Assembly (NCBI GenBank): GCA_014163555.1
Contig: JACJGO010000013.1
Coordinates: forward strand, 1 to 64,000
DNA: 64,000 nt
Reading direction: 5' to 3'
Source of the DNA: Flavisolibacter longurius
Lineage (GTDB): Bacteria; Bacteroidota; Bacteroidia; Chitinophagales; Chitinophagaceae
Every line of letters begins with the position of its first letter. Positions within the stretch are counted from its first letter, which is position 1. Positions 1,512-57,569 of the stretch are shown piece after piece. Below the pieces are notes generated by a model. The model was given only the letters and a program-made list of their open reading frames with translations, ran no database searches and was not told the origin of the DNA. Position numbers and translations under genes: made by a program.

Positions 1512-1543
1512 GTTCACAAGTTTACTGGTTCACGGGTTCACCA
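1512..1543 (+). repeat. Octamer array, GTTCACNN family
   Basis: Four consecutive 8-nt units are visible: GTTCACAA, GTTTACTG, GTTCACGG, GTTCACCA. The hexamer core is kept while the last two bases vary. It lies in the divergent region between mnmD and the glycosylase gene. Confidence 0.85.
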
Positions 1544-1599
1544 ATTGAAAGCCCACAAAATCTTTCGGAATACCGTTACAAATTAGAATCACCCAACAG

Positions 1600-1627
1600 T
1601 TTCACGTCTCACGTTTCCCATTTCACG
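1600..1627 (+). repeat. Heptamer array, TTTCACG family
   Basis: Four 7-nt units in tandem: TTTCACG, TCTCACG, TTTCCCA, TTTCACG. The array ends 6 nt before the promoter box of the following glycosylase gene. Confidence 0.85.
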
Positions 1628-1633
1628 TCCCTG

Positions 1634-1641
1634 TATCTTCG
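1634..1641 (+). promoter_or_regulatory. -7 box TATCTTCG of the glycosylase gene
   Basis: TATCTTCG fits the Bacteroidota -7 consensus TAnnTTTG with one change. It ends only 5 nt before the ATG at 1647, so transcription would start at or next to the start codon (leaderless mRNA). Confidence 0.55.
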
Positions 1642-1646
1642 TACAC

Positions 1647-2252
1647 ATGTCTGCCTACATCGACCATCTTTCCAAAGACAGCCGGCTGCGGAAAGTATTA
1701 TCAGAACAGGATGCGGTTTCGCTTTCTTCGCACAAAAACATTCCGCTGCGGCTTTGTGCCTCCATTATGAGCCAGCAGCTTTCCACCAAAGTAGCCAAGG
1801 TGATCTTTCACCGCTTCCTGGCCTTGTATGGTGGCGAAGAGCCCACGCCGGAGCAGATTGCGGCCACGCCGCTGGAAGTGCTGCGGGGCATAGGCCTGAG
1901 CAATGCCAAGGCGCAATATGTGTTGAACGTGGCGGAATTTTGCAGGGAACACAAGCTTACCGATAAGCAGCTGAAAAAGATGAATAATGAGGAGATCATT
2001 GACCTGCTCACGCAAATCAAGGGCGTCGGTCAATGGACGGTGGAAATGCTCCTGATGTTCACCCTGAGCCGGGAGGACGTGTTTTCCGTGGATGATTACG
2101 GCATCCAGGTGGCCATGAAAAAACTGTACAAGCTTGACGACAGCAACAAAAAAGAATTCAAAGCGGCTATGCAAAAGATTGCCGCAAAATGGTCGCCCTA
2201 CCGCACCTATGCCTGCCTGCACCTGTGGCAGTGGAAAGACGACGGCCAATAG
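1647..2252 (+). CDS. DNA-3-methyladenine glycosylase II-like, HhH-GPD superfamily
   Basis: This 201-residue protein belongs to the HhH-GPD base-excision glycosylases, closest to the AlkA group, which remove alkylated bases such as 3-methyladenine from DNA. The helix-hairpin-helix IKGVGQWTVEM lies at about residues 124-134 and the loop with the expected catalytic Asp, SVDDYGI, at 147-153 (D150 aligns with AlkA D238). There is no iron-sulfur Cys cluster at the C-terminus, arguing against a MutY/Nth role. It is compact, lacking the N-terminal domain of E. coli AlkA. The ATG lies 5 nt after a promoter box. A heptamer repeat begins at the stop codon. Confidence 0.88.
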   Translation: MSAYIDHLSKDSRLRKVLSEQDAVSLSSHKNIPLRLCASIMSQQLSTKVAKVIFHRFLALYGGEEPTPEQIAATPLEVLRGIGLSNAKAQYVLNVAEFCREHKLTDKQLKKMNNEEIIDLLTQIKGVGQWTVEMLLMFTLSREDVFSVDDYGIQVAMKKLYKLDDSNKKEFKAAMQKIAAKWSPYRTYACLHLWQWKDDGQ

Positions 2253-2344
2253 GCAATCGACAATTGGCAACAGGCAATAAGCAAGAAACAACAACACGTT
2301 GAACGTTACTCTTTGCGGATTGCTAATTGCTTATTGCCAATTGA
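2252..2344. repeat. Paired heptamer arrays, GGCAATC / ATTGCTT family
   Basis: Left arm 2252-2286 reads GGCAATC, GACAATT, GGCAACA, GGCAATA, AGCAAGA. Right arm 2317-2344 reads GGATTGC, TAATTGC, TTATTGC, CAATTGA, the reverse-complement type. A 30-nt spacer separates them. The left arm starts at the stop codon of the glycosylase gene. Confidence 0.85.
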
Positions 2345-2375
2345 AAGCCAGAATGCCAATTTTTTCCGAAGATTC

Positions 2376-2405
2376 TTGTCCAATCAGCGCTCTTGCCTAC
2401 ATTTG
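2376..2405 (+). promoter_or_regulatory. Promoter of the DUF4290 gene (TTG, 19 nt, TACATTTG)
   Basis: TTG at 2376-2378 and TACATTTG at 2398-2405 are 19 nt apart, a good match to the Bacteroidota -33/-7 promoter. The -7 box ends 5 nt before the ATG at 2411, suggesting a leaderless transcript. Confidence 0.7.
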
Positions 2406-2410
2406 TTGCA

Positions 2411-3106: not shown

Positions 3107-3163
3107 AACAGGTTGTGAAAAGCAGCAAGCAGCCGGCCTTGTTAAGAAGATAAGTCTTTTCGT

Positions 3164-3202
3164 AAACAGACCTCCTTGGAATCATGGGAGGTTGTTTTGT
3201 TT
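3164..3202 (+). terminator. Terminator after the DUF4290 gene
   Basis: AAACAGACCTCC pairs with GGAGGTTGTTT with one bulged G, and T-rich sequence follows (GTTTTGTTTT). Confidence 0.7.
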
Positions 3203-3340
3203 TAACTGAAAGGAGCCACGAATCTCCTGTTCCCGGCTGTTTTACACCACGTATCATTTAACAATCCCATTTGATTTTTCAACCTAATTTGCCTTGCTTA
3301 ACTGCTCTTGATCGATCCTTTACAGACTGAACACTTTAAC

Positions 3341-6070: not shown

Positions 6071-6073
6071 ACT

Positions 6074-6111
6074 TAGTGGGATGAACAGGCTTGCATATGT
6101 TCATCCCACTA
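6074..6111 (+). terminator. Long hairpin directly after bamA
   Basis: A 14-bp perfect inverted repeat (TAGTGGGATGAACA and its complement, 10-nt loop) starts 4 nt after the stop codon. Only a short, interrupted T run follows, so it may act as an attenuator or mRNA 3' stabiliser between bamA and ompH. Confidence 0.6.
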
Positions 6112-7450: not shown

Positions 7451-7465
7451 AATAATATATAGGTT

Positions 7466-7608
7466 ACGGTTCACAGTTTACAGTTTATTGTACGCTGTAA
7501 AAGCTATGGCTGGAGGTAAAGCAAAAAGCTAATCGATTTTTTTACTTCGAAACATGCTGACCTAACAACTGCGAACTGTGAACTGCGAACGGCAACGGTG
7601 AACTTGTA
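7466..7608. repeat. Paired heptamer arrays, GTTCACA/GTTTACA family
   Basis: Left arm 7466-7493 reads ACGGTTC, ACAGTTT, ACAGTTT, ATTGTAC. Right arm 7567-7608 reads AACTGCG, AACTGTG, AACTGCG, AACGGCA, ACGGTGA, ACTTGTA, the inverted sense of the same family. The spacer is 73 nt. The right arm ends just upstream of the gmk promoter box. Confidence 0.85.
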
Positions 7609-8333: not shown

Positions 8334-9590
8334 ATGGTAGAGATCAATATCATCGTGTGGTTTATTGTCACCCTTTTGCTCATGGGTTTTTTTGCCGGGG
8401 TAGAAATGGCTTTTTACAGCGTTAACCGGTTTAGCATCGAACTGCGCAAAAAACAGGGAAGCCCCGATGCGGTGCTTCTCTCCAAATATTTCGAAAACCC
8501 CGAGTTGTTCCTGAGTACTATGCTCATTGGCTTTACCATTTTCCTGGTTTGGTTTGCCTTATTGTTCAATACCATCACCGAACACCTTTGGAACGCAGCG
8601 GGGTTGTACAATGTGGCGGCCCGTGTTGTTCTTGATATTGTGCTGGCCACCTTTATTGTAATGGTGCTGGGTGAATTTGTGCCCAGAGCCATGTTCCGTG
8701 CCCACAGCAATATTATTCTGACGCGGCTAGTGTGGTTGATCAATGTTATTCACACCATTCTGCAACCCATTGCCCGACTGTTTCTGGCGATGGCCAATTG
8801 GACCCTGCAATATATCTTCAACATCAAGGTAAAGGAATCGAAAGAAACCCTGCCGCCAGGAACCCTGGAAACACTTTTCCAGCAAAACGAAAACCCCGAT
8901 TATGAAGCTGAGGAAATGAATACAGAGTTATTTGAAAATGCGCTGGAATTGCCAAAAGTAAAAATTCGTCAGTGCCTGGTACCGCGAAAGGAAGTAGTAG
9001 GTGTAGACGTGAATTGCACGGTAGAAGAAGCCCGCCAAAAATTCATTGAAACCAAGTTAAGTAAACTGGTGGTGTATGAAAAAACGATCGACAACATTGT
9101 GGGCTACATTCACCAGCTAGACCTCTTTAAACATCCCGATACCCTGCAGGCTATTCTGCTGCCCATACCCGCCGTACCGGAAAGCATGAGTGCAACGGAC
9201 CTGATTAGCAAGTTTACCAAAGAACGCAAAAGCATTGCCTGGGTGGTGGATGAATTTGGCGGCACAGCCGGTATTGTTACCATGGAGGATGTGCTGGAGG
9301 AGATCTTTGGCGAGATCCACGACGAATACGACAGCGAAGAGTTTGTAGAAAAGCGGCTTTCAGAAAATGAGTACATTTTTTCCGGACGGCTGGAACTGGA
9401 TTATATCAGCGAAAAATACGAGCTGGAATTTCCCGAGAACGAATCGGAAACCCTTTCCGGTTTCATCATCTCTCACCATGAAACCATCCCACAACAAAAA
9501 GAACGCATCATCATTGACGATTTCGAATTTGATATTCTCAGTGTAAGCAATACCCGGATTGAGATGGTGAAGATGAAAGTGTTGAAGTAG
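8334..9590 (+). CDS. CNNM/CorC-type transmembrane CBS protein (HlyC/CorC family)
   Basis: The 418-residue protein has the family layout: an N-terminal CNNM (DUF21) membrane domain with about four hydrophobic segments (1-160), a linker, a CBS pair (about 200-330, including SKLVVYEKTIDNIVGYIHQ and VVDEFGGTAGIVTMEDVLEEIFGEI) and a C-terminal CorC/HlyC transporter-associated domain. Related proteins act in magnesium or cobalt export, and a Bacteroidota paralogue (GldE) aids gliding; sequence alone does not choose between these. The ATG at 8334 is preferred to a GTG 66 nt upstream because the CNNM domain starts right after it. Confidence 0.88.
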   Translation: MVEINIIVWFIVTLLLMGFFAGVEMAFYSVNRFSIELRKKQGSPDAVLLSKYFENPELFLSTMLIGFTIFLVWFALLFNTITEHLWNAAGLYNVAARVVLDIVLATFIVMVLGEFVPRAMFRAHSNIILTRLVWLINVIHTILQPIARLFLAMANWTLQYIFNIKVKESKETLPPGTLETLFQQNENPDYEAEEMNTELFENALELPKVKIRQCLVPRKEVVGVDVNCTVEEARQKFIETKLSKLVVYEKTIDNIVGYIHQLDLFKHPDTLQAILLPIPAVPESMSATDLISKFTKERKSIAWVVDEFGGTAGIVTMEDVLEEIFGEIHDEYDSEEFVEKRLSENEYIFSGRLELDYISEKYELEFPENESETLSGFIISHHETIPQQKERIIIDDFEFDILSVSNTRIEMVKMKVLK

Positions 9591-9726
9591 GAGTCAGAAT
9601 ACAGGAATCAGAATGGAAAGCAATCAATAGAGGCAATTAGCAAAATAAGTAAGCAGCAACAAATGGGTACTGCCAACTGCATACTGTCTACTCTCCTGAA
9701 TTCTGTATTCTGACTCCTGACTCCTT
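9591..9726. repeat. Paired heptamer arrays, GAGTCAG / CTCCTGA family
   Basis: Left arm 9591-9611 reads GAGTCAG, AATACAG, GAATCAG. Right arm 9693-9720 reads CTCCTGA, ATTCTGT, ATTCTGA, CTCCTGA, the inverted sense. The left arm begins immediately after the stop codon of the CorC-like gene, and the right arm ends at the tatC promoter. The spacer contains a partial GCAATTA-type array. Confidence 0.88.
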
Positions 9727-9753: not shown

Positions 9754-10611
9754 ATGGCATTATCATTTTTCAGACGCGGCAACTCCAGTGAAGAAAGGGC
9801 AGAAATGTCATTTGTGGATCATTTGGAAGTGCTCCGCGGACACCTTTTCCGCAGTGTGCTGGCCATCCTGGCCGGCGCCGTAGTGATAGCGATCTTCAAG
9901 GATTTTTTCGTGAAAAAGGTATTGCTGGGTCCCACCCATGCTGATTTTCCCACTTATGGTGTGATCTGCGACATTGGGAAAAAGCTGAACCTCGAAGAAG
10001 CTCTTTGCATGAGTGGTTTGAATATTCAAATGCAAAGCACCGGGGTGGCTACGCAGTTCAGCACATTTATTTCCATTATGCTGATAGGCGGCATCGTGAT
10101 TGCCTTTCCTTATATCTTTTGGGAATTCTGGCGTTTTGTAAAACCAGCGCTCACCCGGAAGGAATTGCAAAATACCCGCGGGCTTATCTTCTGGGTTTCC
10201 TTCCTGTTTTTCCTGGGTGTGTTCTTTGGCTTTTTTGTGATTGCGCCGTATACACTTAACTTCTTTGGTTCTTTCCAGTTGGATGAGAACATCGAAAACC
10301 GCTGGACCATCGCCAGTTATTTCGATACGATGATTCCCCTGATTTTAGGTACGGGTCTGGCTTTTCAATTGCCGCTTTTAATGATTCTGCTGGCCAAGAT
10401 CGGGATTGTATCCGGTTCGTTTTTACGGAAGCAACGCAAGTATGCCATTGTACTCATATTGATCCTCGCGGCCGTTATTACTCCCGGTCCGGATGTGATC
10501 AGCCAAATGACGGTTGCCATTCCGCTTTATATTCTTTTTGAGATCAGCATTGTTCTCACCCGCCGCATCGAAAAGCGGGAGCAGGAAGAAGAAGCAAGAG
10601 AATGGAGCTGA
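9754..10611 (+). CDS. tatC: Sec-independent protein translocase TatC
   Basis: The 285-residue protein is TatC, the membrane receptor that binds twin-arginine signal peptides. Seen are the N-terminal MSFVDHLEVLRGHLFRSV motif (family signature SFxxHLxELR), six hydrophobic segments, a periplasmic loop of about 60 residues between segments 1 and 2, and the EFWRFVKPALTRKE stretch. The C-terminal tail is charged (RRIEKREQEEEAREWS). The ATG at 9754 is used rather than the TTG at 9736, because the promoter box TATCTTTG covers that region. No tatA/tatB gene is next to it, so the partner must be elsewhere. Confidence 0.93.
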   Translation: MALSFFRRGNSSEERAEMSFVDHLEVLRGHLFRSVLAILAGAVVIAIFKDFFVKKVLLGPTHADFPTYGVICDIGKKLNLEEALCMSGLNIQMQSTGVATQFSTFISIMLIGGIVIAFPYIFWEFWRFVKPALTRKELQNTRGLIFWVSFLFFLGVFFGFFVIAPYTLNFFGSFQLDENIENRWTIASYFDTMIPLILGTGLAFQLPLLMILLAKIGIVSGSFLRKQRKYAIVLILILAAVITPGPDVISQMTVAIPLYILFEISIVLTRRIEKREQEEEAREWS

Positions 10612-10613
10612 GG

Positions 10614-10760
10614 ACGTGAAACGTGAATCGTCAAACGTGAAACTGTAGCGTCCTTCTATTTTCAGTCTGCCTTATGTTAACCTATTACGGCTTTCTACTT
10701 GTGAACTCGTGAACTTGTGGATGGTCTCTTGTCTCACGTCTGACGATTCACGTTTCACGT
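10614..10760. repeat. Paired heptamer arrays, ACGTGAA / TTCACGT family, with nested octamers
   Basis: Left arm 10614-10641: ACGTGAA, ACGTGAA, TCGTCAA, ACGTGAA. Right arm 10733-10760: CTCACGT, CTGACGA, TTCACGT, TTCACGT, inverted sense. Between them, 10699-10714 holds two octamers TTGTGAAC, TCGTGAAC of the GTTCACNN family. The left arm starts 2 nt after the tatC stop codon. The rest of the 261-nt gap up to 10872 shows nothing else. Confidence 0.88.
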
Positions 10761-15330: not shown

Positions 15331-15337
15331 ACAAAAA

Positions 15338-15447
15338 GTTTACAAGTTCACGGGTTCACTCGTTCACAAGTTAAATGTTCACTTGTATACAAGATTGCCA
15401 CAACAAAAAAACAACTCGTGAACAAGTGAACTTGTGAACCCGTGAAC
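15338..15447. repeat. Paired octamer arrays, GTTCACNN / NNGTGAAC family
   Basis: Left arm 15338-15392: GTTTACAA, GTTCACGG, GTTCACTC, GTTCACAA, a 7-nt GTTAAAT, GTTCACTT, GTATACAA. Right arm 15416-15447: TCGTGAAC, AAGTGAAC, TTGTGAAC, CCGTGAAC. The spacer is 23 nt. The hexamer is fixed and the two flanking bases vary through AA, GG, TC, TT and CC. The right arm touches the stop codon of the protease gene. Confidence 0.92.
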
Positions 15448-19703: not shown

Positions 19704-20600
19704 ATGTGGGAAAACGTTCTTCACTATTTCGAAACCCTTGAGCAGCGACCGGTAGAGCGAATGGCCTTTATTGTGGGCGGCCTGCTTTTTTTCTGGATAT
19801 TGGAAGGTGCCATTCCGCTGCTGGAACCCAAATATAAAAGGACCAAGGCCCGCCATGCGATGATCAATTTTTCGTTTACGGCCATTCACCTGGTTATTCA
19901 AACCGGGATTGCCGTGCTGATTGTATTACTGAGCGACTGGTGCCAGAAGGCTGATTTCGGTCTTGCGCAATGGATGGATTTAGGGGTGATGGGAACGATT
20001 CTCCTCGCCTTTTTTGTGTATGATTTTTTTATTGGCTGGCTGGCCCATTTTGTCGAACACAAATCGTTTACGCTTTGGCGTTTCCATATCGTGCATCATG
20101 CCGACAATAATGTAGATGCCACCACCGGGCTTCGGCATCACCCAATTGAAAGTATCATTCGCGGTTCTTTTTTTTTGCTGGCAACGGTGGTAGTTGGTGC
20201 GCCCATTTATACCCTAATGATCTTCCAGACCTTCCTGGTTTTTTTCACAGCCTTTACCCATGCTAACATCAGCCTGCCGCCAAAACTCGATAAAGCACTT
20301 TCGTATTTTTTTGTTTCGCCCAACATGCACAAGGTGCATCACCACTGGGTGCAGCCGTATACCGACAGCAACTACGGCGCTGTGCTTTCCATTTGGGATC
20401 GTTTGTTTGGCACATATCGCCAGTTAGCGCCTTCAGAGATTCGGTACGGTCTTGATCGGTATTACCCCAACGAGCAGGACGAAAATTTTTGGATGCTGCT
20501 TAAAAGCCCATTTAATTTGCGGGAGACGTCAAACGTCAAACGTGAAATTGATGAGAGTGCCAACATAGATCATCCTGCGCATTCAAAAGCTTCCGTTTGA
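19704..20600 (+). CDS. Sterol desaturase / fatty acid hydroxylase family membrane protein
   Basis: A 298-residue integral membrane protein with the eight-histidine di-iron signature: H115xxxH119, H128xxHH132, H145H146 and H209xxHHH214. It has four to five hydrophobic segments (24-42, 60-78, 96-112, 155-185). Members hydroxylate or desaturate lipids or carotenoids; the substrate is unknown. Residues 274-298 after the family domain (which ends LLKSPFNL) are encoded by the left arm and spacer of a heptamer repeat pair, and the stop codon lies at the start of the right arm, so the C-terminal tail is repeat-derived. Confidence 0.85.
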   Translation: MWENVLHYFETLEQRPVERMAFIVGGLLFFWILEGAIPLLEPKYKRTKARHAMINFSFTAIHLVIQTGIAVLIVLLSDWCQKADFGLAQWMDLGVMGTILLAFFVYDFFIGWLAHFVEHKSFTLWRFHIVHHADNNVDATTGLRHHPIESIIRGSFFLLATVVVGAPIYTLMIFQTFLVFFTAFTHANISLPPKLDKALSYFFVSPNMHKVHHHWVQPYTDSNYGAVLSIWDRLFGTYRQLAPSEIRYGLDRYYPNEQDENFWMLLKSPFNLRETSNVKREIDESANIDHPAHSKASV

Positions 20601-20624
20601 CGTCTCACGTTTCACATCTCACGT
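20525..20624. repeat. Paired heptamer arrays, GACGTCA / CTCACGT family, inside the 3' end of a CDS
   Basis: Left arm 20525-20545: GACGTCA, AACGTCA, AACGTGA, inside the hydroxylase gene. Right arm 20597-20624: TTGACGT, CTCACGT, TTCACAT, CTCACGT, starting at the stop codon and ending next to the kdsB promoter. Confidence 0.88.
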
Positions 20625-23559: not shown

Positions 23560-23665
23560 CAGTTTTGAACCACAGTGTCACAGCGTCTCGGAGGTGTGTA
23601 CAGGGTATGTTCTCTGTGATGCGCTGTGTTCTTTTCCTGTCCCCTGTGGCGCTAAAAAATTTTAC

Positions 23666-24199
23666 ATGCAAAACAAAATATCCGTCATCAAAGCTGACAT
23701 CACGAAAGTGGAAGTTGATGCGATTGTCAACGCCGCCAATTCATCGTTGTTGGGTGGCGGCGGTGTGGATGGTGCTATTCACCGAGCCGGCGGCCCGGCT
23801 ATTTTGGAAGAGTGCAGAAAGATTGTGGTGCGACAAGGTGGTTGCCGCCCCGGAGAAGCCGTGAAAACAACAGCAGGTATGCTGCCCGCAAAATTTGTCA
23901 TTCATACCGTCGGTCCGGTTTGGAATGGTGGCCATCGGAACGAAAGAGAATTGCTGGCGAATTGTTACCGAAATTCGTTGCAACTGGCAGTTGACAACCA
24001 GTGCCGGTCCATTGCTTTTCCTAACATTAGTACGGGTGTGTATCGTTTTCCCAAAGCAGAAGCGGCAACTATTGCGGTACAAACCGTACATGATTTTTTG
24101 GCGGGGGATGATACATTAGAGAAAGTCGTTTTTGTTTGTTTTGATGAGGAAAATTTTGGCCTGGTGGAAAAGGAACTTGCACGGTTGGGGATTGCATAA
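23666..24199 (+). CDS. Macro domain protein (O-acetyl-ADP-ribose deacetylase-like)
   Basis: The 177-residue protein is a single macro domain of the MacroD/YmdB type: [20 protein letters not shown] with the catalytic-loop Asn and Asp, [10 protein letters not shown] in the middle and the loop [12 protein letters not shown] binding the distal ribose. Such enzymes remove ADP-ribose from proteins or hydrolyse O-acetyl-ADP-ribose. The ATG at 23666 is chosen; the longer frame from 23504 overlaps the HerA-like gene and runs through an intergenic repeat-like sequence. Confidence 0.88.
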
Positions 24200-24240
24200 G
24201 TGGTCATCGGTTGCAGTTTTGTTTTTCTTTAGGTTGTTTT

Positions 24241-24309
24241 CCACCTTTTCTCTCCGAAAAGGTGGAGCCAAAAGTTCAAGGAAAAGGCAATTGCTCCGCT
24301 GCCTTTTCC
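24241..24309. repeat. Double 10-bp hairpin element
   Basis: CCACCTTTTC/GAAAAGGTGG with a 5-nt loop (24241-24265) is followed after 14 nt by GGAAAAGGCA/TGCCTTTTCC with a 10-nt loop (24280-24309). Both stems are perfect. No T run follows, so it is not a plain terminator. Confidence 0.7.
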
Positions 24310-24607
24310 AGGCCAGCGCACAACAGGCATCATTACACGTTGCTTGTTTCACTACGTACGCTGTTTTTCTTTTCAGCCACATTCTGCACGAAAGATTGCA
24401 TGAGGCTATTCCTTTTTAATGGCCGATAATGCAAACTACTGCAGGCGCTGTATTGCGCTATCCCTTATTTACTGCAAAAAGGTGCGTTAACCCATGCGCA
24501 ATAAGGCGCTGAACCAGCGGGTGAAGGATAAATAATAATGGAAGGTTTCCCTCTTTGAAAATTGATCGTTGGGCATTGAACATTGCTCATTATGAGGCAC
24601 AAACAAA

Positions 24608-24637
24608 AAGCCTCCATCAAATGGCTGACAGAGGCTA
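24608..24637 (-). terminator. Terminator of the murI-DUF3078 unit
   Basis: Read on the minus strand, AGCCTC and GAGGCT form the stem and TTTTTGTTTG follows. It lies about 90 nt after the DUF3078 stop. Confidence 0.6.
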
Positions 24638-24677
24638 AAAACATTTCGTGCAAAAGCAAGGGTCTGTGCTTAGACCA

Positions 24678-24694
24678 CCCCTCCACCGGAGGGG
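24678..24694. repeat. REP-like palindrome CCCCTCC-ACC-GGAGGGG
   Basis: Seven-base perfect arms with a 3-nt loop, flanked by GGCCGGGGGAGG. Same type as 19312-19326. Confidence 0.7.
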
Positions 24695-24724
24695 CCGGGG
24701 GAGGCTAGGTGGGAGCCGTGCCTT

Positions 24725-25679: not shown

Positions 25680-26501
25680 CTACAAATCTACGTGTCTTCC
25701 CAAAACGGGTTGACCGAAGAAAAGTGAAGCCTTGCTGGTAAAATCATCTGCCGAATCAGTGGTGTAAAAATGGCGTTGTCCCTGTCGTGAAATTTTCTGT
25801 TCAATTTCAGGATGGCGTTGCAGGTAATCCTGCAGACTGTGCGCCACAATCTCGCCCTGCGAAAGCAGCGTGACCTGCGAGGGCAGATGGGTTTCTATTT
25901 TTTCTTTCAACAACGGGTAATGCGTACAGGCCAGTAGCAGCGTATCAATGGCATCGTCTTTCGAAAGAATATTCCGGATGTGTTTTTTTATAAAATAATC
26001 AGCCCCTTCACTTTCGTGTTCGTTATTCTCCACCAGGGGAACCCACATCGGGCAGGCCTCCTGGGTGATTTTTAATTCTGGGAAAAATTTTTCAATTTCA
26101 ATCCCATAGGAATCAGATTGCACGGTGCCATTGGTGGCCAGGATGCCGATATGCTTTGTGTTTGTTTTTTGGCCAATGATTTCGGTGGTCGGACGAATCA
26201 CTCCCAGCACTCTGGCCGTGGGATGCAGGCGCTGCAGATCGTTCTGCTGAATGCTGCGAAGGGCCTTTGCCGATGCTGTGTTGCAGGCAAGAATCACAAG
26301 CGGGCAATTCTGTTTCAACAGCCATTCCACACACTGCAGGGTATAACGGTAAACCGTCTCAAAACTGCGGGTACCATATGGTGCCCGGGCATTGTCGCCG
26401 AGGTAGAGATAATCGTATTGCGGCAGAGCTTTTACAATTTCACGCAGTACCGTAAGGCCGCCATAGCCCGAATCAAAAACACCAATGGGAGAAACGTTCA
26501 A
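25680..26501 (-). CDS. murI: Glutamate racemase
   Basis: The 273-residue enzyme interconverts L- and D-glutamate for peptidoglycan. Both catalytic cysteines are present, C73 in LACNTASA and C192 in LACTHYPLL, together with the N-terminal GVFDSGYGGLTV and GDNARAPYG motifs. The start appears to be TTG at 26501 (codons then read NVSPIGVFDSG); no ATG lies close enough. This TTG is inside the left arm of a heptamer array, so the repeat supplies the start region. Confidence 0.93.
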   Translation of the reverse strand: MNVSPIGVFDSGYGGLTVLREIVKALPQYDYLYLGDNARAPYGTRSFETVYRYTLQCVEWLLKQNCPLVILACNTASAKALRSIQQNDLQRLHPTARVLGVIRPTTEIIGQKTNTKHIGILATNGTVQSDSYGIEIEKFFPELKITQEACPMWVPLVENNEHESEGADYFIKKHIRNILSKDDAIDTLLLACTHYPLLKEKIETHLPSQVTLLSQGEIVAHSLQDYLQRHPEIEQKISRQGQRHFYTTDSADDFTSKASLFFGQPVLGRHVDL

Positions 26502-26577
26502 AGTTCAAAGTTTAAAGTTCAAAGTTATTGATCGGTCATAGCAAACGGTGAACGGTTAACTGTAAACGGTTAACTTT
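26496..26577. repeat. Two adjoining heptamer arrays, GTTCAAA and AAACGGT families
   Basis: 26496-26530: GTTCAAA, GTTCAAA, GTTTAAA, GTTCAAA, GTTATTG. 26543-26577: AAACGGT, GAACGGT, TAACTGT, AAACGGT, TAACTTT. They lie between the divergent murI and AraC-type genes and must contain both promoters. The last unit resembles a -7 box 5 nt before the AraC start. Confidence 0.9.
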
Positions 26578-26582: not shown

Positions 26583-27428
26583 GTGCAGCATGTGGAGTTT
26601 TTTCATAAGGATCATTTCGAGTTTCGCTACCATCGCCAAAAAGCAAAGCGGTCGCTTTCGCAGTTTATTGACTATTTCTGGGAAACCGATTTCGACACCT
26701 TATACCCGCAATATCCCGGCGGGTTTTCCGATGCCTTGTTTCCAAACGTCGGTTACACGTACCTCATTAACCTGGGCACACCATTCGTGATGCAATTGGA
26801 AGAAGAGAAGTTTGATGTAAAAGGCGATGGCTTTTTACCCCGGTATAAGAACATGATCTGCCATCATTCAACGGGCAATAAAATTTTCGGCATCAAGTTC
26901 AATGTGTCGCCGGTTCTTTTTCAGAAAAGGATCAATTTCTCGGAATACCGGGAATACATTTTCCCCCTGGCTTATCTCATTGACCGAAGCGTTGTGGAAA
27001 AAGTAAAAGCTGCCCCTTCGTTTGAGCAGCGGATGCAGATTCTCACGGCGTATTACGAAGACATTATTCAGCAATATGCCGGTTCACTCAACCCGGTGGA
27101 TATTGTAACGGAGATCCTGCAGGATTGTGTAGATTCCAATACGTATGATGTTTCCATTGAAGAACTGGCCGTTCGCTACCGGATCAGTACCCGCACCCTG
27201 CAGCGTTATTTTGAAGCCACCACCAGCATCACCAGCAAACAAGCCTTGCAAATTCTTCGCATTCGCAAGGCCGTGGAAAAGCTGGCAAACAAACCGCAAG
27301 ATTTTCATTACACGCAGTTTGGCTATTACGATTACAGTCATTTTTACAAACACCTGAAGCACTTCCTTTGCCGCCATTCCGTGGATATTGTTCAGCCGCA
27401 CCTGGCCTTGCTTGCAAGGAGTAAGTAG
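26583..27428 (+). CDS. AraC family transcriptional regulator
   Basis: A 281-residue regulator. The N-terminal 150 residues match the DUF6597-type sensing domain common in Bacteroidota AraC proteins (FIDYFWETDFDTLYPQYP). The C-terminal 100 hold the two helix-turn-helix motifs (SIEELAVRYRISTRTLQRYF; HYTQFGYYDYSHFYKHLKHF). GTG at 26583 is the likely start. The ligand and targets are not evident; divergent murI and convergent TonB-type gene are not obvious targets. Confidence 0.83.
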   Translation: MQHVEFFHKDHFEFRYHRQKAKRSLSQFIDYFWETDFDTLYPQYPGGFSDALFPNVGYTYLINLGTPFVMQLEEEKFDVKGDGFLPRYKNMICHHSTGNKIFGIKFNVSPVLFQKRINFSEYREYIFPLAYLIDRSVVEKVKAAPSFEQRMQILTAYYEDIIQQYAGSLNPVDIVTEILQDCVDSNTYDVSIEELAVRYRISTRTLQRYFEATTSITSKQALQILRIRKAVEKLANKPQDFHYTQFGYYDYSHFYKHLKHFLCRHSVDIVQPHLALLARSK

Positions 27429-27569
27429 TCAATAGCGAGTAGCAAGTAGCCTTTTTGCGCAAACCTTCTTACATAACAAAACCTTTCTAAAGGTCAGAGA
27501 GGTTTTGTTATGTAAAGGATTGATTCTGCTAAATGGCTACTCACCACTGACCATTCACCACTCACGATC
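27424..27569. repeat. Paired heptamer arrays around a long hairpin, AGTAGCA / CACCACT families
   Basis: Left arm 27424-27451: AGTAGTC, AATAGCG, AGTAGCA, AGTAGCC, overlapping the AraC stop. Right arm 27535-27569: GGCTACT, CACCACT, GACCATT, CACCACT, CACGATC, ending 2 nt before the stop of the convergent gene. The GGCTACT unit is the complement of AGTAGCC. Confidence 0.85.
27469..27515. terminator. Bidirectional terminator-like 16-bp inverted repeat
   Basis: Perfect 16-bp arms TTACATAACAAAACCT / AGGTTTTGTTATGTAA around a 15-nt loop, between two convergent genes. It sits in the spacer of the heptamer pair. Confidence 0.7.
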
Positions 27570-34051: not shown

Positions 34052-34079
34052 CAACTACAAACCAAAAACTACAAACTCG
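34052..34079. repeat. Heptamer array, CAACTAC/AAACTAC family
   Basis: CAACTAC, AAACCAA, AAACTAC, AAACTCG; it contains the stop codon of uppS (34069-34071). Confidence 0.75.
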
Positions 34080-35016: not shown

Positions 35017-35058
35017 CAATTGCTCATTGCTTATTGTCAATTGTCAGTTGGCCGTTGG
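35017..35058. repeat. Heptamer array, CAATTGC/CATTGCT family
   Basis: CAATTGC, TCATTGC, TTATTGT, CAATTGT, CAGTTGG, CCGTTGG. It encodes the last residues and the stop of the DUF6089 gene. Confidence 0.85.
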
Positions 35059-36938: not shown

Positions 36939-37010
36939 GTTTACTGTTCACAGTTTACCGTTTACAGCGTTTAATAACTGTAAACTATGAACGGAAAACT
37001 GTAAACGTTC
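36939..37010. repeat. Paired heptamer arrays, GTTTACT / AACTGTA family
   Basis: Left arm 36939-36966: GTTTACT, GTTCACA, GTTTACC, GTTTACA. Right arm 36976-37010: AACTGTA, AACTATG, AACGGAA, AACTGTA, AACGTTC, inverted sense, only 9 nt apart. The pair fills the space between the Omp85-like stop and the nadK start. Confidence 0.92.
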
Positions 37011-40881: not shown

Positions 40882-40890
40882 AAAATTCAA

Positions 40891-40998
40891 TTCACGTATT
40901 CACGTGTTCACGTGTTCACAAGTTGATAAGGGCCAGAACTGGCTTTGGCAGCCATGTCATGAACCCGTGAACTTGTGAACCTGTAAACTTGTGAACTT
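40891..40998. repeat. Paired octamer arrays, TTCACGTN / GTGAACNN family
   Basis: Left arm 40891-40922: TTCACGTA, TTCACGTG, TTCACGTG, TTCACAAG. Right arm 40959-40998: ATGAACCC, GTGAACTT, GTGAACCT, GTAAACTT, GTGAACTT. The pair fills the cvpA-yqeY gap; the right arm overlaps the yqeY stop codon. Confidence 0.92.
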
Positions 40999-41458: not shown

Positions 41459-41510
41459 GTTTGTAGTTGGTCGTTTGTGGTTTTTGAGCAGGACACGCCG
41501 CGGCGTGTCC
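41459..41510. repeat. Heptamer array GTTTGTA plus a 20-bp perfect palindrome
   Basis: GTTTGTA, GTTGGTC, GTTTGTG, GTTTTTG at 41459-41486, followed at 41491-41510 by a 20-bp perfect palindrome with arm GGACACGCCG. A 9-nt doublet TTCGTGCAA, TCCGTGCAA follows at 41532-41549. Confidence 0.8.
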
Positions 41511-41932: not shown

Positions 41933-41945
41933 GGAAGGGAGGAGG

Positions 41946-42100
41946 TGAAACGTGAGACGTGAGATATCAGATGTGAAACAGATGAGTTCACAAGTTTATG
42001 GGTTCACTTGTTCACGAGTTGAGGGCCCAACTAACTTTCACAAAAAAGATTGAATCTATAGTGTTGCTACGGTTTCACGTCTGGCGTTTGACCTCTCACG
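41946..42100. repeat. Paired heptamer arrays (GTGAAAC / TTTCACG) with a nested octamer array
   Basis: Left arm 41946-41980: GTGAAAC, GTGAGAC, GTGAGAT, ATCAGAT, GTGAAAC. Octamers 41987-42018: GTTCACAA, GTTTATGG, GTTCACTT, GTTCACGA. Right arm 42073-42100: TTTCACG, TCTGGCG, TTTGACC, TCTCACG, which encodes the last codons of the GT4 gene. Confidence 0.9.
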
Positions 42101-43215
42101 ATCGACGCAATACCATCCCATACCAGGTCCGCTGTGCGCTGCCAGGTGTAGTGGGCGCCGATGGAGAGGCCTTTTTGAACCAGTTCTTTCCGTTCCCCTT
42201 CATTTTTGTAAATGAACATCAACTTGTAGGCGATATCGTCAACGTTGGCTGGGTCGAAATAGAGCCCGGCGCCGCCACTGATCTCTTCCATTGCCGAATC
42301 TTTGGACGTGAGTACCGGCACCTTGCACCACATGGCTTCCGCCACCGGTACGCCAAAGCCTTCAAAAAACGATGGATACACCGCTGCGTAAGCCGATGCC
42401 GTTAGTGCGGCCAGGTCTTCTTCCGGCAGGTATCCCGTCAGCACCACATCTTCTCTGTATTTGTAGGTTTTCAGCAGTTCCAGAAATTCATCGTTCTTCC
42501 AGGCCAGCCGGCCGGCCAGCACCAGCTTGAGGGAACTTTGCAGCCGACGCTTAAATACCGAATAGGCCTTTAAGAGATTAACCAGGTTTTTCCGGGGATG
42601 GATAGCGCCTGTGTAAAGGAAAAACTCTGCCCCACTTGTGTACTTATCCTTCACGGCCATCTGCTCATCGAACGAAAACGGCCGGAAAATCTCTTTCACA
42701 CCGTTGTACACCACGGCGATTTTCTCTGGGGCAATCTCATACGTTTTTATGATATCGTCCTTTGAAAACTGCGAAACGGTGGCAACAGCGCTGGCTTTAC
42801 GGATGAATTTCGGCGTATAGTGTTTGTAATACGCCAGGTGCGATTTCTGGTAACCTTCCGGGTAGTGTAAAAAGCCCAGATCGTGCACTACCACGTACTG
42901 GGGCACCCGGGTCGTTAGTGAGCACTGGCCATCGGGAGAGAAAAACACATCGGCTTTGATCTTTTGCAAACGACGGGTAACCGCAACGTCAAACCAGTAC
43001 TTCCACAACAGGGGATGCCGTGCCGGTGGCGAAAGCACATGACCGGTTACGTTGGGAGCAAAAAGATAGGCCTGCTGAAAAGGCCTGTCAAAGAAAAAAT
43101 GAAACTGGTGTTCGGGATGTTGCTCGGTTATTCGCCGCAGTACTTCTTTGCTGAAATAGCCATAGCCTTCCAGTTGGTCATCCAGCAAAAAACGGGTGTT
43201 GACAGCAACGATCAT
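42067..43215 (-). CDS. GT4-family glycosyltransferase
   Basis: The 382-residue enzyme has the GT-B fold of glycosyltransferase family 4: an N-terminal domain with VVHDLGFLHYPE, a middle FFLYTGAIHPRKNLVNLLKAY, and the C-terminal donor site motif VYPSFFEGFGVPVAEAMWC with its conserved Glu residues. It probably adds a sugar from a nucleotide donor in polysaccharide or LPS synthesis; acceptor unknown. ATG at 43215; an exact promoter box ends 6 nt upstream. The C-terminal residues are coded by a heptamer arm. Confidence 0.87.
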   Translation of the reverse strand: MIVAVNTRFLLDDQLEGYGYFSKEVLRRITEQHPEHQFHFFFDRPFQQAYLFAPNVTGHVLSPPARHPLLWKYWFDVAVTRRLQKIKADVFFSPDGQCSLTTRVPQYVVVHDLGFLHYPEGYQKSHLAYYKHYTPKFIRKASAVATVSQFSKDDIIKTYEIAPEKIAVVYNGVKEIFRPFSFDEQMAVKDKYTSGAEFFLYTGAIHPRKNLVNLLKAYSVFKRRLQSSLKLVLAGRLAWKNDEFLELLKTYKYREDVVLTGYLPEEDLAALTASAYAAVYPSFFEGFGVPVAEAMWCKVPVLTSKDSAMEEISGGAGLYFDPANVDDIAYKLMFIYKNEGERKELVQKGLSIGAHYTWQRTADLVWDGIASIVRGQTPDVKP

Positions 43216-44975: not shown

Positions 44976-45035
44976 GTGAGTGGTGAATGGTAAGACAGGA
45001 GCAGATCGACTCACAACTGACCACTCACCACTCAC
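44975..45035. repeat. Paired heptamer arrays, AGTGAGT / CACTCAC family
   Basis: Left arm 44975-44995: AGTGAGT, GGTGAAT, GGTAAGA. Right arm 45008-45035: GACTCAC, AACTGAC, CACTCAC, CACTCAC, ending on the stop codon of the small membrane protein gene (45032). Confidence 0.88.
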
Positions 45036-45316
45036 GAATCCGGTTCGCCAAATGCCATGGCCACAGAAGCAAAAAACAGCACAACAATGGTAACGATCAG
45101 CACTACAAAATGAAAATTGTCATCGGTCAGTGCTTTTGAGATGGTAGTGGCAATCTCGTAAAGCGTGTACAATAAACCGGCAGCCACAATAACAACAGCG
45201 GCTATCCGGAATCCTTTGTGCGGCACCTTTAGCGCTTTGCGAAAAATCCAGATATAGAGCGCAAGCGAAACGGCGTATGGAAAAATATACATGAAAAGGC
45301 GAAAGAGGGTTTCCAT
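45032..45316 (-). CDS. Small membrane protein of unknown function
   Basis: A 94-residue protein with three hydrophobic helices (MYIFPYAVSLALYIWIF; IAAVVIVAAGLLYTLYEIA; VVLIVTIVVLFFASVAMAF) joined by short charged loops. No family recognised. It lies 11 nt downstream of obg on the same strand, so it is probably co-transcribed. Its final codons lie in a heptamer arm. Confidence 0.65.
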   Translation of the reverse strand: METLFRLFMYIFPYAVSLALYIWIFRKALKVPHKGFRIAAVVIVAAGLLYTLYEIATTISKALTDDNFHFVVLIVTIVVLFFASVAMAFGEPDS

Positions 45317-54235: not shown

Positions 54236-54292
54236 ATCGGAAAGCCGTTTTATCAAATGTTAAACGTTTCCGTTTTTTTAAAGAGAGCTACC

Positions 54293-54327
54293 ATCACTCA
54301 CCATTCACCACTGACCACTCACCTCTT
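54293..54327. repeat. Heptamer array, ACCACTC family
   Basis: ATCACTC, ACCATTC, ACCACTG, ACCACTC, ACCTCTT between two co-directional genes. Confidence 0.85.
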
Positions 54328-54390
54328 GGCATTGTTTTCGTTTTAACCAGTCTGGAAAACAGATTCCTCAACCTTTAAAAACAAATAACC

Positions 54391-55036: not shown

Positions 55037-55768
55037 ATGGAAGAATTGCTGCTAAAAAGCGAAGCCTTACAGCTTGCTGAAAAAAACATGCTCGATTATT
55101 TTGCTACCCATGACGTAAAGTACATAGCCGAAGACGGCGTGTTTCGCAACATGGGAACCGGCGAAACCTACCGCGGCCGTGCTGAGATTGGCGCCATGCT
55201 GCACTATTTTTACCGGGTGGCCTTTGATGCCCGTGCCGAAACGACCAACCATTACATCTCCGAAGACACCGCCATGGTAGAAGGTATGATTCGCGGAAAT
55301 CACACAGGAGAATTTATGGGCATTCCGGCTACCGGCAAGGAGATCAACTTGCCCGTTTGCGTTACCTACCGGTTGAAGAATGGCCTGATACAGGAAGCGC
55401 ACATCTTCATGATGAATGATGTGATCCTGCGGCAGCTTGGCTGCAAACAGGCAGCGTTTAAAGTAAAGACCACTTACCTGGTCCGGGATATTTTTTACCT
55501 GAAGTTTGGCCAGTACCGGGCGGCTAAAAAACTGGTAGACGAAGCCGTGGAAAAAGGTATGCTGCCTGAAAACCAGTCGACCCGGATGTACACGGACTTT
55601 ACCGGCGACAGCTACCGCCTCATTTTTGAAGAAGGTCACCAAAGCCTGGAGGACTACGAAACCTCCCTTACCCGTGAACTGCAGGGAGCAGACTGGAAAG
55701 GCTGGTACGACCGCTTTACCCCCCTGGTGGAAAAGGGCCACCGCGAAATATTAAAACAGGTGATGTAG
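55037..55768 (+). CDS. SnoaL-like domain fused to an NIPSNAP-like domain
   Basis: A 243-residue protein. Residues 1-130 have the NTF2/SnoaL-like fold (LDYFATHDVKYIAEDGVF, YRGRAEIGAMLHYFYRVAF, AHIFMMNDVILRQLG), used for small-molecule cyclases and many other roles. Residues 140-240 look like an NIPSNAP/ABM-type ferredoxin-like domain (VRDIFYLKFGQYRAAKKLV, MYTDFTGDSYRLIFEEG). This pairing is uncommon to my knowledge. Substrate unknown; no signal peptide. ATG at 55037. Confidence 0.65.
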   Translation: MEELLLKSEALQLAEKNMLDYFATHDVKYIAEDGVFRNMGTGETYRGRAEIGAMLHYFYRVAFDARAETTNHYISEDTAMVEGMIRGNHTGEFMGIPATGKEINLPVCVTYRLKNGLIQEAHIFMMNDVILRQLGCKQAAFKVKTTYLVRDIFYLKFGQYRAAKKLVDEAVEKGMLPENQSTRMYTDFTGDSYRLIFEEGHQSLEDYETSLTRELQGADWKGWYDRFTPLVEKGHREILKQVM

Positions 55769-55800
55769 TATCGTTTGCATAACAAGTCTGGGAGGTGAGC

Positions 55801-55818
55801 AAAGCCAGCCAGGCTTTT
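55801..55818. terminator. Hairpin between convergent genes
   Basis: AAAGCC/GGCTTT with a 5-nt loop, followed by T residues; likely terminator of the SnoaL-like gene. Confidence 0.55.
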
Positions 55819-55820
55819 TT

Positions 55821-57407
55821 TCAGAAGCCTTTTACAGTGTTTATGTTGGTGAGCATCGCTCCGCTACGTACACCCGTGTGCTTTCCATCCTCAACGATCA
55901 ACGCACCATTCACCAGTACATAATGAAAGCCCTTGGAATAAGCATGCGGCTTTTCGTAGGTAGAGAGATCAGCCACTTCGGCCTCATCAAACACCACCAC
56001 GTCGGCAGCCATTCCTTCCCGCAAGAGGCCGCGGTCTTTCAACCCAAACTTTTGCGCCGGCAGGGAAGTCATGCGGCGCACGGCTTCTTCCAGCGGAATC
56101 ACGCCTTCTTCCCGTACGTACTTACCCAACACACGGGCATTGGTGCCATATCCCCTGGGGTGCGGTGCACCCTGGTTAAACACCCGGATGGAAGCATCGG
56201 ACGCAAACATGTTAAAGGGATATTGCATGATGCGCTTTACATCCGCATCACCCATGCCATGAAACACCATCGAAGCGCCACCTTTCATCATCATGTCCAT
56301 CACCGTTTCGGCTTCTTCTTTTGCCTTGTGCCTGCGGCCCATCAGCCGGTTTACTTCTTCAATGCTTTTCCCATTCATGGTAGTATCGGCGCGGTAATAA
56401 GCCACCACGGGATAGCTGAAATGTTTGAGCTTTCGCCGCTTCAGCCGCTGCAGCATATAGTCGGAAACATATTTGCGTACCTCCGGTCTTGCCAGCCGTG
56501 CACGGATGGAATCCTGTTCGTCGGCAAGAATTTCATCGGGCAGCAGGGTGCCCAGGTTGGTGCTGCTGGCCGTGTAGGGATACTGGTCGATGGTTACGTC
56601 CAGCCCTTCACTTCTGGCTTTGATGATCATGGGGATTGTTTCCGAGCTGCGTCCCCAGTTTTGCTGCCCGCTTAATTTAAAATGCGAGATCTCTACCGGC
56701 ATGCCGGCCTCCCGGCCAATGTGCAGGGCTTCGTTGATCGCATCGGTTATTTTGTCGCCTTCATCCCGCATATGCGTGGCATACACACCGTTGTGCCGGG
56801 AGGCGGCTTTTGCCAGGCGCAGCACTTCATCAGTAGTGGAATAGGTTCCCGGGATATAAATGAGTCCTGTGCTCAGGCCCACGGCGCCGTCCAGCATGGC
56901 TTTTTCCACCAAAGCCTCCATTTGCTTTAGCTCGTCTTCGGTGGGTTTGCGGTTGGCAGTGCCCATCACGGCACGGCGCACACTGTTGTGACCCACCAGC
57001 GTAGCCACGTTAACGGACACACGTAAGGAATCAAGCTGCCGGAAATAGCGGCCAATATCGGTTTGCGATGAACCGCAGTTGCCGGTAACAACCGTGGTCA
57101 CGCCGTCGTAAATAAAATTGTCGGCTGTGGGATTTTTGACTTCGTCGCCTTCAATATGCGTATGCACATCAATAAAGCCGGGAGCAACAATCCGCCCTTT
57201 GGCATCAATGGTTTTTGCCGCCGGCATGTTTTGCAGGTTGCCGATCTTCAGGATTTTGCCATCCTTTACAGCCACATCACCCCGGAACCAGGAGTTGCCG
57301 GTGCCATCAAGAATACGGCCATCCCGGATCAGCACATCGGCTTTTACCTGGGCTTTTGAAACGGTACAAAGGCAAAAGAACAGGAAGAGAAATATACCAT
57401 CACGCAT
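55821..57407 (-). CDS. D-aminoacylase / N-acyl-D-amino-acid deacylase-like amidohydrolase
   Basis: The 528-residue secreted protein has a signal peptide (MRDGIFLFLFFCLCTVSKAQ) and the amidohydrolase fold: metal HxH in DVHTHIEG, a GNCGSSQTDIG loop, ATHMRDEGD with metal His, and a final FASDASI metal Asp. Most like D-aminoacylases, which remove acyl groups from N-acyl-D-amino acids; substrates may include peptidoglycan-derived D-amino acids, which is inference. Length is normal for the family. Confidence 0.83.
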   Translation of the reverse strand: MRDGIFLFLFFCLCTVSKAQVKADVLIRDGRILDGTGNSWFRGDVAVKDGKILKIGNLQNMPAAKTIDAKGRIVAPGFIDVHTHIEGDEVKNPTADNFIYDGVTTVVTGNCGSSQTDIGRYFRQLDSLRVSVNVATLVGHNSVRRAVMGTANRKPTEDELKQMEALVEKAMLDGAVGLSTGLIYIPGTYSTTDEVLRLAKAASRHNGVYATHMRDEGDKITDAINEALHIGREAGMPVEISHFKLSGQQNWGRSSETIPMIIKARSEGLDVTIDQYPYTASSTNLGTLLPDEILADEQDSIRARLARPEVRKYVSDYMLQRLKRRKLKHFSYPVVAYYRADTTMNGKSIEEVNRLMGRRHKAKEEAETVMDMMMKGGASMVFHGMGDADVKRIMQYPFNMFASDASIRVFNQGAPHPRGYGTNARVLGKYVREEGVIPLEEAVRRMTSLPAQKFGLKDRGLLREGMAADVVVFDEAEVADLSTYEKPHAYSKGFHYVLVNGALIVEDGKHTGVRSGAMLTNINTVKGF

Positions 57408-57437
57408 GCTTAAAAATACGGAACAGAAGGGAAAATC

Positions 57438-57569
57438 GTGAATGGTGAGTGGTCAGTAGTGAGTGGCGATGCTTTTTAGCACAGACTCTATTTTCTTTGG
57501 TTAGTGCATGTTGAAGTCTTCAGACAGGCCCAACTTTACTTACCATTCACCACTGACCACTCACCACCT
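57438..57569. repeat. Paired heptamer arrays, GTGAATG / ACCACTC family
   Basis: Left arm 57438-57465: GTGAATG, GTGAGTG, GTCAGTA, GTGAGTG. Right arm 57542-57569: ACCATTC, ACCACTG, ACCACTC, ACCACCT, inverted sense, ending on the stop codon of the next gene. Spacer 76 nt. Confidence 0.92.

Follow-up and report, generated by a model that had tools for sequence, protein, structure and literature searches.

Heptamer and octamer arrays in Flavisolibacter intergenic DNA

The window analyzed here is a 64,000-nucleotide (nt) stretch of the genome of Flavisolibacter longurius (Chitinophagaceae; hereafter G000). Its intergenic DNA carries many short tandem arrays of degenerate 7- or 8-nt units, often arranged as two inverted arms, as a first-pass annotation of this DNA had described. 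Comparison with a sister species (G014) and with other bacteria makes it probable that these arrays represent the end arms of small mobile DNA elements whose full form encodes an S23 protein and which are related to rRNA intervening sequences (IVSs). S23 (PF05635) is a four-helix-bundle family named for the IVSs of 23S rRNA.

The intergenic DNA analyzed in the window amounts to 12.3 kb in 54 intergenic regions. Its autocorrelation is raised at lag 7 (z=7.7) and lag 14 (z=7.2), with lag 8 at only z=1.0; lags 3 (z=7.1), 18 (4.6), 21 (3.9), and 6 (3.3) are also raised, as expected with residual coding sequence in the intergenic set. In a local test, short segments with at least 11 of 14 matches were counted as self-matching and compared with shuffles. 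This gave 130 observed versus 3.0 shuffled at lag 7, 50 versus 0.27 at lag 8, and 65 versus 0.07 at lag 14, while lags 4 to 6 and 9 to 13 stayed inside the shuffle range. Array segments number 25 versus 0.0 at lag 7 and 7 versus 0.2 at lag 8, and the excess of tandem segments over shuffles is confined to periods 7, 8, and their multiples. Altogether, 34 arms scoring at least 8 are spread over 23 of the 54 regions; counts from one earlier arm threshold (1052 observed, 764 in shuffles) were not used.

The same pattern extends beyond the window. In 400 kb of another G000 contig, C21, lag 7 yields 43 segments (1.4 in shuffles) and lag 8 yields 29 (1.0), with a small excess at lag 5 (6 versus 1.2); in 400 kb of G014, the values are 85 (0.8) and 26 (1.6). 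Coding DNA has few lag-7 segments (1, 6, and 7 in the window, C21, and G014 sets, as raw counts), and 50 kb of Escherichia coli K-12, used as a negative control, has none at lags 4 to 12. Thus, the excess over shuffles at lags 7 and 8, seen when neighboring lags were run alongside, bears out the intergenic arrays that had been described, and the six example loci given for them all hold such arrays at the correct coordinates. An Rfam search of the window returned no match, to rRNA or otherwise, and the units of the window are intergenic. The array loci of the window are the following.

1479..1633, + strand: copy of element A, about 160 bp, with outer arms of CGTGAAA-family 7-mers and a nonrepeat core; inner one-sided GTTYACNN array at 1511-1541, right 7-mer arm at 1599-1624; nhmmer 119.9, in the seed alignment
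2247..2343: paired 7-mer arms, GCAATNN (CAATNGG/TTGCNNA), left 2247-2294, right 2313-2343; at the stop codon of the gene at 1647-2252
7466..7593: paired GTTYACA 7-mer arms, 7466-7487 and 7567-7593; followed by a GTGAACTTGTAAAC octamer pair
9591..9725: paired GAGTCAG 7-mer arms, left 9591-9614 (by eye), right 9696-9725; inner ACTGCNN array at 9669-9695
10609..10760, - strand: copy of element A abutting the tatC stop codon; outer CGTGAAA 7-mer arms at 10614-10643 and 10724-10760, inner GTTCAC octamers at 10697-10719; nhmmer 95.9, outside the seed; a different array family in the G014 ortholog
15336..15447: paired GTTYACNN 8-mer arms (GTTCACNN pair), 15336-15372 and 15413-15447; loop of 40 nt
20526..20622: paired CGTCAAA (ACGTCAA) 7-mer arms, 20526-20547 and 20594-20622
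26493..26574: inverted 7-mer arms, left of AGTTCAA type and right of GTTNAC type, filling an 81-nt divergent intergenic region; conserved in G014
27416..27565: arms of two families, GAGTAGC at 27416-27450 and ACTCACC at 27539-27565; a further hairpin between them (by eye)
34053..34077: AACTACAAAC 7-mer array
35019..35058: ATTGCNN 7-mer array adjoining a stop codon
36934..37007: paired GTTTACN 7-mer arms, the right one (36976-37007) degenerate and subthreshold; conserved in G014
40890..40998: paired GTTYACNN 8-mer arms, 40890-40930 and 40960-40998
41459..41486: GTTTGTAG 7-mer array
41949..42103, + strand: copy of element A with left 7-mer arm (41945-41972), inner GTTYACNN array, and right 7-mer arm; nhmmer 136.8, in the seed
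44976..45040: paired GGTGAGT 7-mer arms, left from 44976 (by eye), right 45009-45040
54292..54326: ACTCACC 7-mer array; CTACTCG family in the G014 ortholog
57434..57567: paired GGTGAGT 7-mer arms, 57434-57469 and 57542-57567; loop of 72 nt; conserved in G014

Element A, with three copies in the window, is a dispersed sequence of about 160 bp in which outer 7-mer arms enclose an inner octamer array and a conserved nonrepeat core. The left arm at 20526-20547 falls within the 3' end of a predicted open reading frame (ORF) at 19704-20600; that arm may therefore have turned into a coding tail.

Families, pairing, and polarity

The arrays fall into many sequence families with fixed variable positions, as had been claimed: 206 arrays cluster into 18 period-7 and 8 period-8 groups, small ones included, and in the unit of a family, roughly five or six positions are conserved and roughly two vary. 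The second arm in reverse-complement sense is equally evident. Same-family arms within one intergenic region lie head to head in 64 cases and in direct orientation in 3, and only 3.7% of unrelated arm pairs reach an equal score. The modal arm has four units (58/126 arms). At the variable positions, likeness falls with the distance between units (0.455, 0.352, 0.376, and 0.289, the lag-1 value being inflated by detection); neighboring units are thus more alike than distant ones, which indicates that local duplication occurs.

Each family keeps one polarity, with 307 locus pairs in the same sense and 5 in the opposite sense (these pairs are not independent); cross-phylum locus pairs give 34:0. 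Outside the GTTYAC families, the 5' arm is richer in G than in C in 44 cases against 4, and in other Chitinophagaceae in 23 against 2. Array edges lie within 5 nt of a stop codon in 73 of 213 cases, and arrays are scarcer between divergent genes. Yet for skewed arrays near gene edges, the outward sense is equal at stop codons (69:8) and start codons (22:1), in a count restricted to arrays outside the GTTYAC families that have more than a small G-C difference and lie no farther than 25 nt from a gene. Polarity is therefore geometric rather than set by translation, and the start-codon edges led us to reject the supply of stop codons as its cause.

S23 genes lie between inverted arrays

IVSs, which interrupt 23S rRNA and are processed by RNase III, are known with an S23 ORF from Coxiella, Leptospira, Xanthomonas, and Brucella. 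A profile search of 800 kb found two S23 ORFs in C21 of G000 and two in contig C22 of G014, all four between inverted arms. At all four sites, the gene and the arm family are jointly absent from the other species. The S23 unit at C21 306569-307061 faces 90 nt in G014, and that at C21 31192-31731 faces a gap of roughly 100 nt that contains a 7-mer pair; at the positions of the G014 units at 351297 and 279996, G000 has another family. The S23 protein of GTTCAC type matches PF05635 with an E value of 2.9e-30. One S23 protein also matches the bAvd-like family (PF22296) at E 2e-6, below the family cutoff, and the nearest solved structure is 2gsc (XCC0516, by its locus tag a Xanthomonas campestris protein). 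In the window, none of the 572 ORFs of at least 35 amino acids matches the S23 profile at E 1e-3; the window copies are thus ORF-less.

From each of forty genomes, a stretch of up to 20 kb at tatC was taken; 18 are array-rich, 18 array-free (that is, with no array in that single stretch), and 4 low. With G000 and G014 added, 20 array-rich and 18 array-free genomes entered the gene-family searches, and the low-array genomes G004, G021, G022, and G046 were omitted. The median number of S23 copies is 10 in array-rich and 2 in array-free genomes (p=8e-5; within family, p=4e-4). We then sampled 38 S23 loci, mostly the best-scoring ones, from seven genomes (10 of 11 in G000, 8 of 10 in G014, 7 of 14 in G003, 4 of 16 in G015, 4 of 17 in G008, 3 of 12 in G023, and 2 of 6 in G025); for one G023 locus, a nearby GTTCAC match was known beforehand. 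In array-rich genomes, 25 of the 38 are flanked on each side, within 320 nt, by one arm of an inverted array pair, compared with 1 of 40 length-matched control genes, and 37 of the 38 have an array on at least one side, compared with 14 of 40 controls. Six loci had first been noticed beside arrays; five of these have the pair, as do 20 of the other 32. Among S23 loci in genomes with no array in the 20-kb sample, 3 of 8 have it.

S23 sequence varies together with the arm family

For the pairing analysis, 49 S23 loci were reduced to 25, since the script used found no ORF for 9 (this group includes C21:306661 and the three Nostoc loci) and a further 15 had no same-period pair. Sharing of an arm family depends on how similar the S23 proteins are: 14 of 14 protein pairs at 55% identity or more share a family (3 of them share a site), as do 6 of 21 at 45 to 55%, 2 of 34 at 35 to 45%, and 6 of 231 below 35%. 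The association is significant (Mantel r=0.37, p=0.0002, n=25), and the nearest-neighbor S23 has the same arm family in 16 of 25 cases, with 2.3 expected. Among 16 same-family comparisons, the flanks have nucleotide homology in 3 and none in 13. Proteins farther removed from the GTTCAC-type S23 are accompanied by GTTTAA-like arms of a different period, namely 9 at 52% and 49% identity (L313 and L315) and 7 at 57% (L314); L317 (56%) has a one-sided 7-mer array, and L316 (44%) has no array. Period-9 arrays of the same paired plan, present around these more distant S23 genes (L313, L315), also occur in Pinibacter (L021).

The association holds between genomes as well. A close S23 is found in 5 of 7 genomes with GTTCAC arrays and in 1 of 30 array-negative genomes hand-picked from a larger set (p=2.7e-4, one-sided). 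Within G000 and G014, 54 of 63 ORF-less pairs can be assigned, with matching polarity, to a family linked to S23; for 34 of them, that link exists in their own genome. With the polarity reversed, 16 of 63 match.

Turnover at orthologous sites

We compared orthologous intergenic regions in the sister species, as had been suggested, and found that arrays are often kept while their family often changes. The main set pairs C21 and the initial portion of the window with G014 C22 and comprises 152 regions that measure 60 nt or more in each species. Arrays occur in both species in 35 regions, in one species only in 8 and 17, and in neither in 92 (odds ratio, 23.7; p=3e-14). The 35 shared regions keep the family in 23 cases and change it in 12, and co-occurrence remains above chance for the 12 changed regions (odds ratio, 8.1; p=8e-5). 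The remainder of the window, set against G014 contig C2, gives 11 regions with arrays in both, 4 in the window only, 2 in G014 only, and 9 in neither; against the more distant G008, the corresponding values for the window are 7, 11, 2, and 13. Both arms often switch jointly: in G014, the 8-mer GTTCAC arms of 15336-15447 correspond to 7-mer GTTTAC arms, and those of 40890-40998 to 7-mer GCAGTAG arms.

At 25 sites that keep their family, identity is 91.8% at core positions, 63.7% at variable positions, 82.7% in flanks, and 78.2% in loops; the contrast arises partly by construction. Families can also be patchy, as with GAGTCAG, which has 28 overlapping pattern matches in G000, 20 in G003, and none in G014, the nearest sister.

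Arrays and S23 genes in other phyla

The first-pass annotation knew of no described counterpart to these arrays in Bacteroidota. This stands in part, as we found none for Bacteroidota in the literature searched except TAACTGA repeats in five Bacteroidetes, reported in the accessible part of PMC4679880. The architecture, in contrast, is not unique to Bacteroidota, being shared with Nostoc plasmids and with the GGGAATC repeats of Xanthomonas. What is new is the S23 partner; the geometry was already in print for the Xanthomonas repeats.

In 400 kb from two Nostoc plasmids, lag 7 yields 56 segments versus 1 in shuffles and lag 8 yields 13 versus 0; lags 6 (10 versus 1) and 11 (8 versus 0) are also raised. 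Array pairs there are inverted in 19 cases and direct in 1, and the G excess of the 5' arm is 13:6. Of 50 Nostoc arrays, 27 match Flavisolibacter families (a column-permuted control gave 8), and two families account for 23 of these 27. Indeed, Flavisolibacter and Nostocales clearly share only two, GAGTCAG and GCAATNN. The former, found in three of five Nostocales plasmids, is the family of the window arms at 9591..9725 and of an array adjoining an S23 gene at G000 C14:42285.

Two of the five Nostocales plasmids carry S23 genes, three in total, and by eye each of these genes has inverted arrays on its two sides. From 11 plasmid matches, seven further loci were inspected, near-duplicates being omitted (Riemerella, Anabaena, Calothrix, and Nostoc); the inverted flanks score z>6 in five, and the remaining two have arrays on both sides that score below this value. 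Two of the neighborhoods are worth recording. In Anabaena sp. 90 (L319 318-1156), an S23 gene with a 275-nt heptamer array lies between cas6 and cas4, and in Nostoc edaphicum (L321 592-1082), an S23 unit with AGTAGGG arms lies between two ribonucleotide reductase genes.

A close published relative is the 23S rRNA IVS of Coxiella, for which the accessible part of PMC4990558 describes an S23 ORF, terminal inverted repeats that form a 28-bp stem, and variable-number heptameric repeats in the upstream region. The Flavisolibacter units share this plan, with the S23 ORF inside terminal inverted repeats and heptameric repeats nearby, which is why we place the window arrays as ORF-less members of the S23 elements. 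They differ in being intergenic, in having many copies and arm families per genome, and in including ORF-less forms. In the openly licensed literature, we found no published link between S23 and heptamer arrays beyond the Coxiella paper.

Cyanobacterial short tandemly repeated repetitive sequences (STRRs) resemble the arrays in their several intergenic heptamer families per genome, two of which are shared together with their polarity. In the Nostoc tRNA-Leu intron, as excerpts of PMC4476775 describe, the arms of the P6b stem are degenerate heptamers of class NNTGAGT or TDNGATT, and one class has repeatedly replaced the other at a single site. Unlike STRRs, Flavisolibacter commonly has octamer families, and the literature that we found contains no S23 link for STRRs. 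The GGGAATC repeats of Xanthomonas and GGGGAYT repeats of Nostoc form convergent pairs (70 and 75 cases in two Xanthomonas genomes) of about four units at sites conserved between species; they lie near the 5' neighboring ORF, whatever its direction, and are scarce between divergent ORFs (PMC4692102, as far as its accessible sections go). Flavisolibacter differs in its many families free of G tracts, its family switching at orthologous sites, and its protein partner. The TAACTGA repeats are likewise intergenic heptamer arrays, patchily spread across Beggiatoaceae, cyanobacteria, and the five Bacteroidetes; according to the same accessible part of PMC4679880, they differ as a single family that in its main genome usually precedes start codons and has just one inverted repeat. 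Bacillus tandem repeats also have a constant size and a sequence that varies by locus and species, but their sizes are 20 to 21 and 52 nt, and the accessible text of PMC8161180 mentions neither inverted pairs nor a partner gene.

Proposed mobile S23 elements and alternative explanations

The mobile S23 elements that we favor would be built as follows. A full element would consist of about four units of 7 to 9 nt, an S23 gene, and then the same array inverted, the arms usually being G-richer than C in the 5' sense. Each S23 lineage would have its own arm family, presumably because the S23 protein recognizes the arm. Most genomic copies, and all those in the window, would be ORF-less pairs of S23-linked families. 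Tolerated sites, for the most part those separating a stop codon from the following gene, may gain and lose copies or exchange one for another, and later tandem duplication would alter unit number and variable positions. We infer that the S23 protein binds the arms, that movement depends on it, and that it may mobilize ORF-less copies in trans. In this regard, two roles proposed in the first-pass annotation gain ground. Selfish spread is supported, and putative binding sites for a repeat-reading protein now have a cognate partner gene in S23, so that this suggestion may be right in an S23 form.

Several results weigh against mobile S23 elements. Genome size and phylogeny, too, go along with S23 copy number, 13 of the 38 sampled S23 loci lack a two-sided pair, and G005 is array-rich yet has no PF05635 match. 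Three of the five Nostocales plasmids have no S23 match, and two of these bear arrays. G248 and G307 (67% complete) have GTTCAC arrays without a close S23, and G099 has a 70% identical S23 with no triple-GTTCAC match. ORF-less pairs have loops that for the most part bear no relation to one another. Presence/absence alignments gave no target-site duplication by eye, with no systematic search, and no clean empty site with a defined junction. Since the flank comparison was a nucleotide search only, absent flank homology between genera is weak evidence for different sites. In five of six families, the arms of one locus are no closer to each other than to the arms of other loci, which also leaves copying between arms by snap-back unsupported. 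To our knowledge, no catalytic activity of S23 is known, and the arms could have existed beforehand as homing targets for S23 genes.

A related alternative makes the arrays primary: slippage and strand switching would generate them at the ends of genes, and S23 genes would be passengers that insert in cognate arrays. Local duplication, visible in the decay of variable positions with unit distance, fits this model, as does the great excess of arrays over S23 genes. Yet gene and arm family are absent together at all four orthologous sites, and slippage accounts neither for the fixed polarity nor for families held in common with Nostoc; we regard this model as unlikely. Telomere-like end addition, in which a broken intergenic region would gain G-rich units at each of its 3' ends and then be rejoined to give head-to-head arms, predicts the polarity, the same family with independent variable positions, and the joint replacement of arms. 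Ku is present in 16 of 20 array-rich and 6 of 18 array-free genomes (p=0.008), an excess that may reflect genome size or a role in end joining. This model leaves the S23 gene between the arms unexplained, however, and four array-rich genomes have no Ku. RVT_1 is unmatched in 12 of the 20, and we rejected a reverse transcriptase as the writer of the arrays on this ground. End addition thus seems very improbable.

Comparable doubt attaches to functional mRNA 3'-end structures or bidirectional terminators, a role that had also been proposed and that is weakly supported at best. Arrays do abut stop codons and are scarcer between divergent genes, and canonical terminators are less frequent in array-bearing than in array-free regions (tandem, 10/102 versus 53/274; convergent, 12/31 versus 35/65). 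The folds of paired modules also score better than those of shuffled sequences (median z, -5.5; n=62), a score that fits any inverted repeat and is therefore not taken as functional evidence. Against this role, canonical terminators remain beside arrays or in loops (by eye) and occur in 22 of 133 array-bearing tandem or convergent regions; arm mismatches in tandem regions show no preference for G-U (33) over A-C (38); and polarity is unchanged at start codons, ignoring gene direction. Elements in the manner of repetitive extragenic palindromic doublets forming hairpins (REPINs), moved by the Y1 transposase RAYT, would also combine nonautonomous paired repeats with a cognate protein gene bearing the same ends, a likeness that extends to miniature inverted-repeat transposable elements (MITEs) and their transposases; as in MITEs, the Flavisolibacter arms are terminal inverted repeats of fixed polarity. 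Strong Y1_Tnp matches occur in 15 of 20 array-rich and 8 of 18 array-free genomes (p=0.10). But array-rich G005, G010 (62% complete), and G024 have no Y1_Tnp, and no array lies within the 1.05 to 1.6 kb searched at the three Y1 loci inspected (two in G000, one in G014), whose neighbors are TAACCCCAGCATTTATGCTGGGG palindromes at two and GCTCCTTCGGAGC palindromes at one. The arrays further differ from both systems in having a four-helix-bundle partner in place of a transposase, tandem 7- to 9-mer ends, and no target duplication seen, and a RAYT-type origin is hardly credible. We give least credence to G-quadruplex formation, as proposed for Xanthomonas and Nostoc. The geometry and four-unit preference are as in the accessible sections of PMC4692102, yet an arm with four G3 tracts is absent from all 63 Flavisolibacter paired loci (four GG occur in 11 of 63), the four-unit mode persists without G3 tracts, and polarity and unit number are largely independent of G tracts.

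Beyond Flavisolibacter, we hold as a tentative proposal, with a little less than even confidence, that the arrays of Bacteroidota, Cyanobacteria, and probably Xanthomonas and Beggiatoaceae form one mobile class with 23S rRNA IVSs. The sole protein of this class would be the S23 four-helix bundle (with its weak bAvd match), reading a 7- to 9-nt arm code without a classical transposase. If so, STRRs would gain an owner and S23 a candidate ligand, both previously without explanation, and rRNA IVSs would be one niche of a far larger family of intergenic elements. The pairing of S23 with its arms would offer a putative recognition code with dozens of natural pairs at units of 7, 8, and 9 nt, and the spread of an element without a recognizable recombinase would become an approachable question.

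Other repeats and neighboring genes

Long, near-perfect GGAGTCA arrays occur in L255 at about 8381-8505 (G000 C58:270380-270504) and in L256 (C43:171892). GCTCCTTCGGAGC palindromes adjoin the array in L255 and a related one in L258, and they resemble those beside a RAYT gene. In the window, positions 24200-24720 hold a noncoding dispersed repeat of about 500 bp that carries a degenerate ATTGAAA array; in 860 kb of G000 sampled, its single-linkage cluster takes in 32 intergenic regions. The neighboring ORF at 23594-24199 encodes what we take, judging by eye, to be a macrodomain-like (ADP-ribose-binding) sequence.

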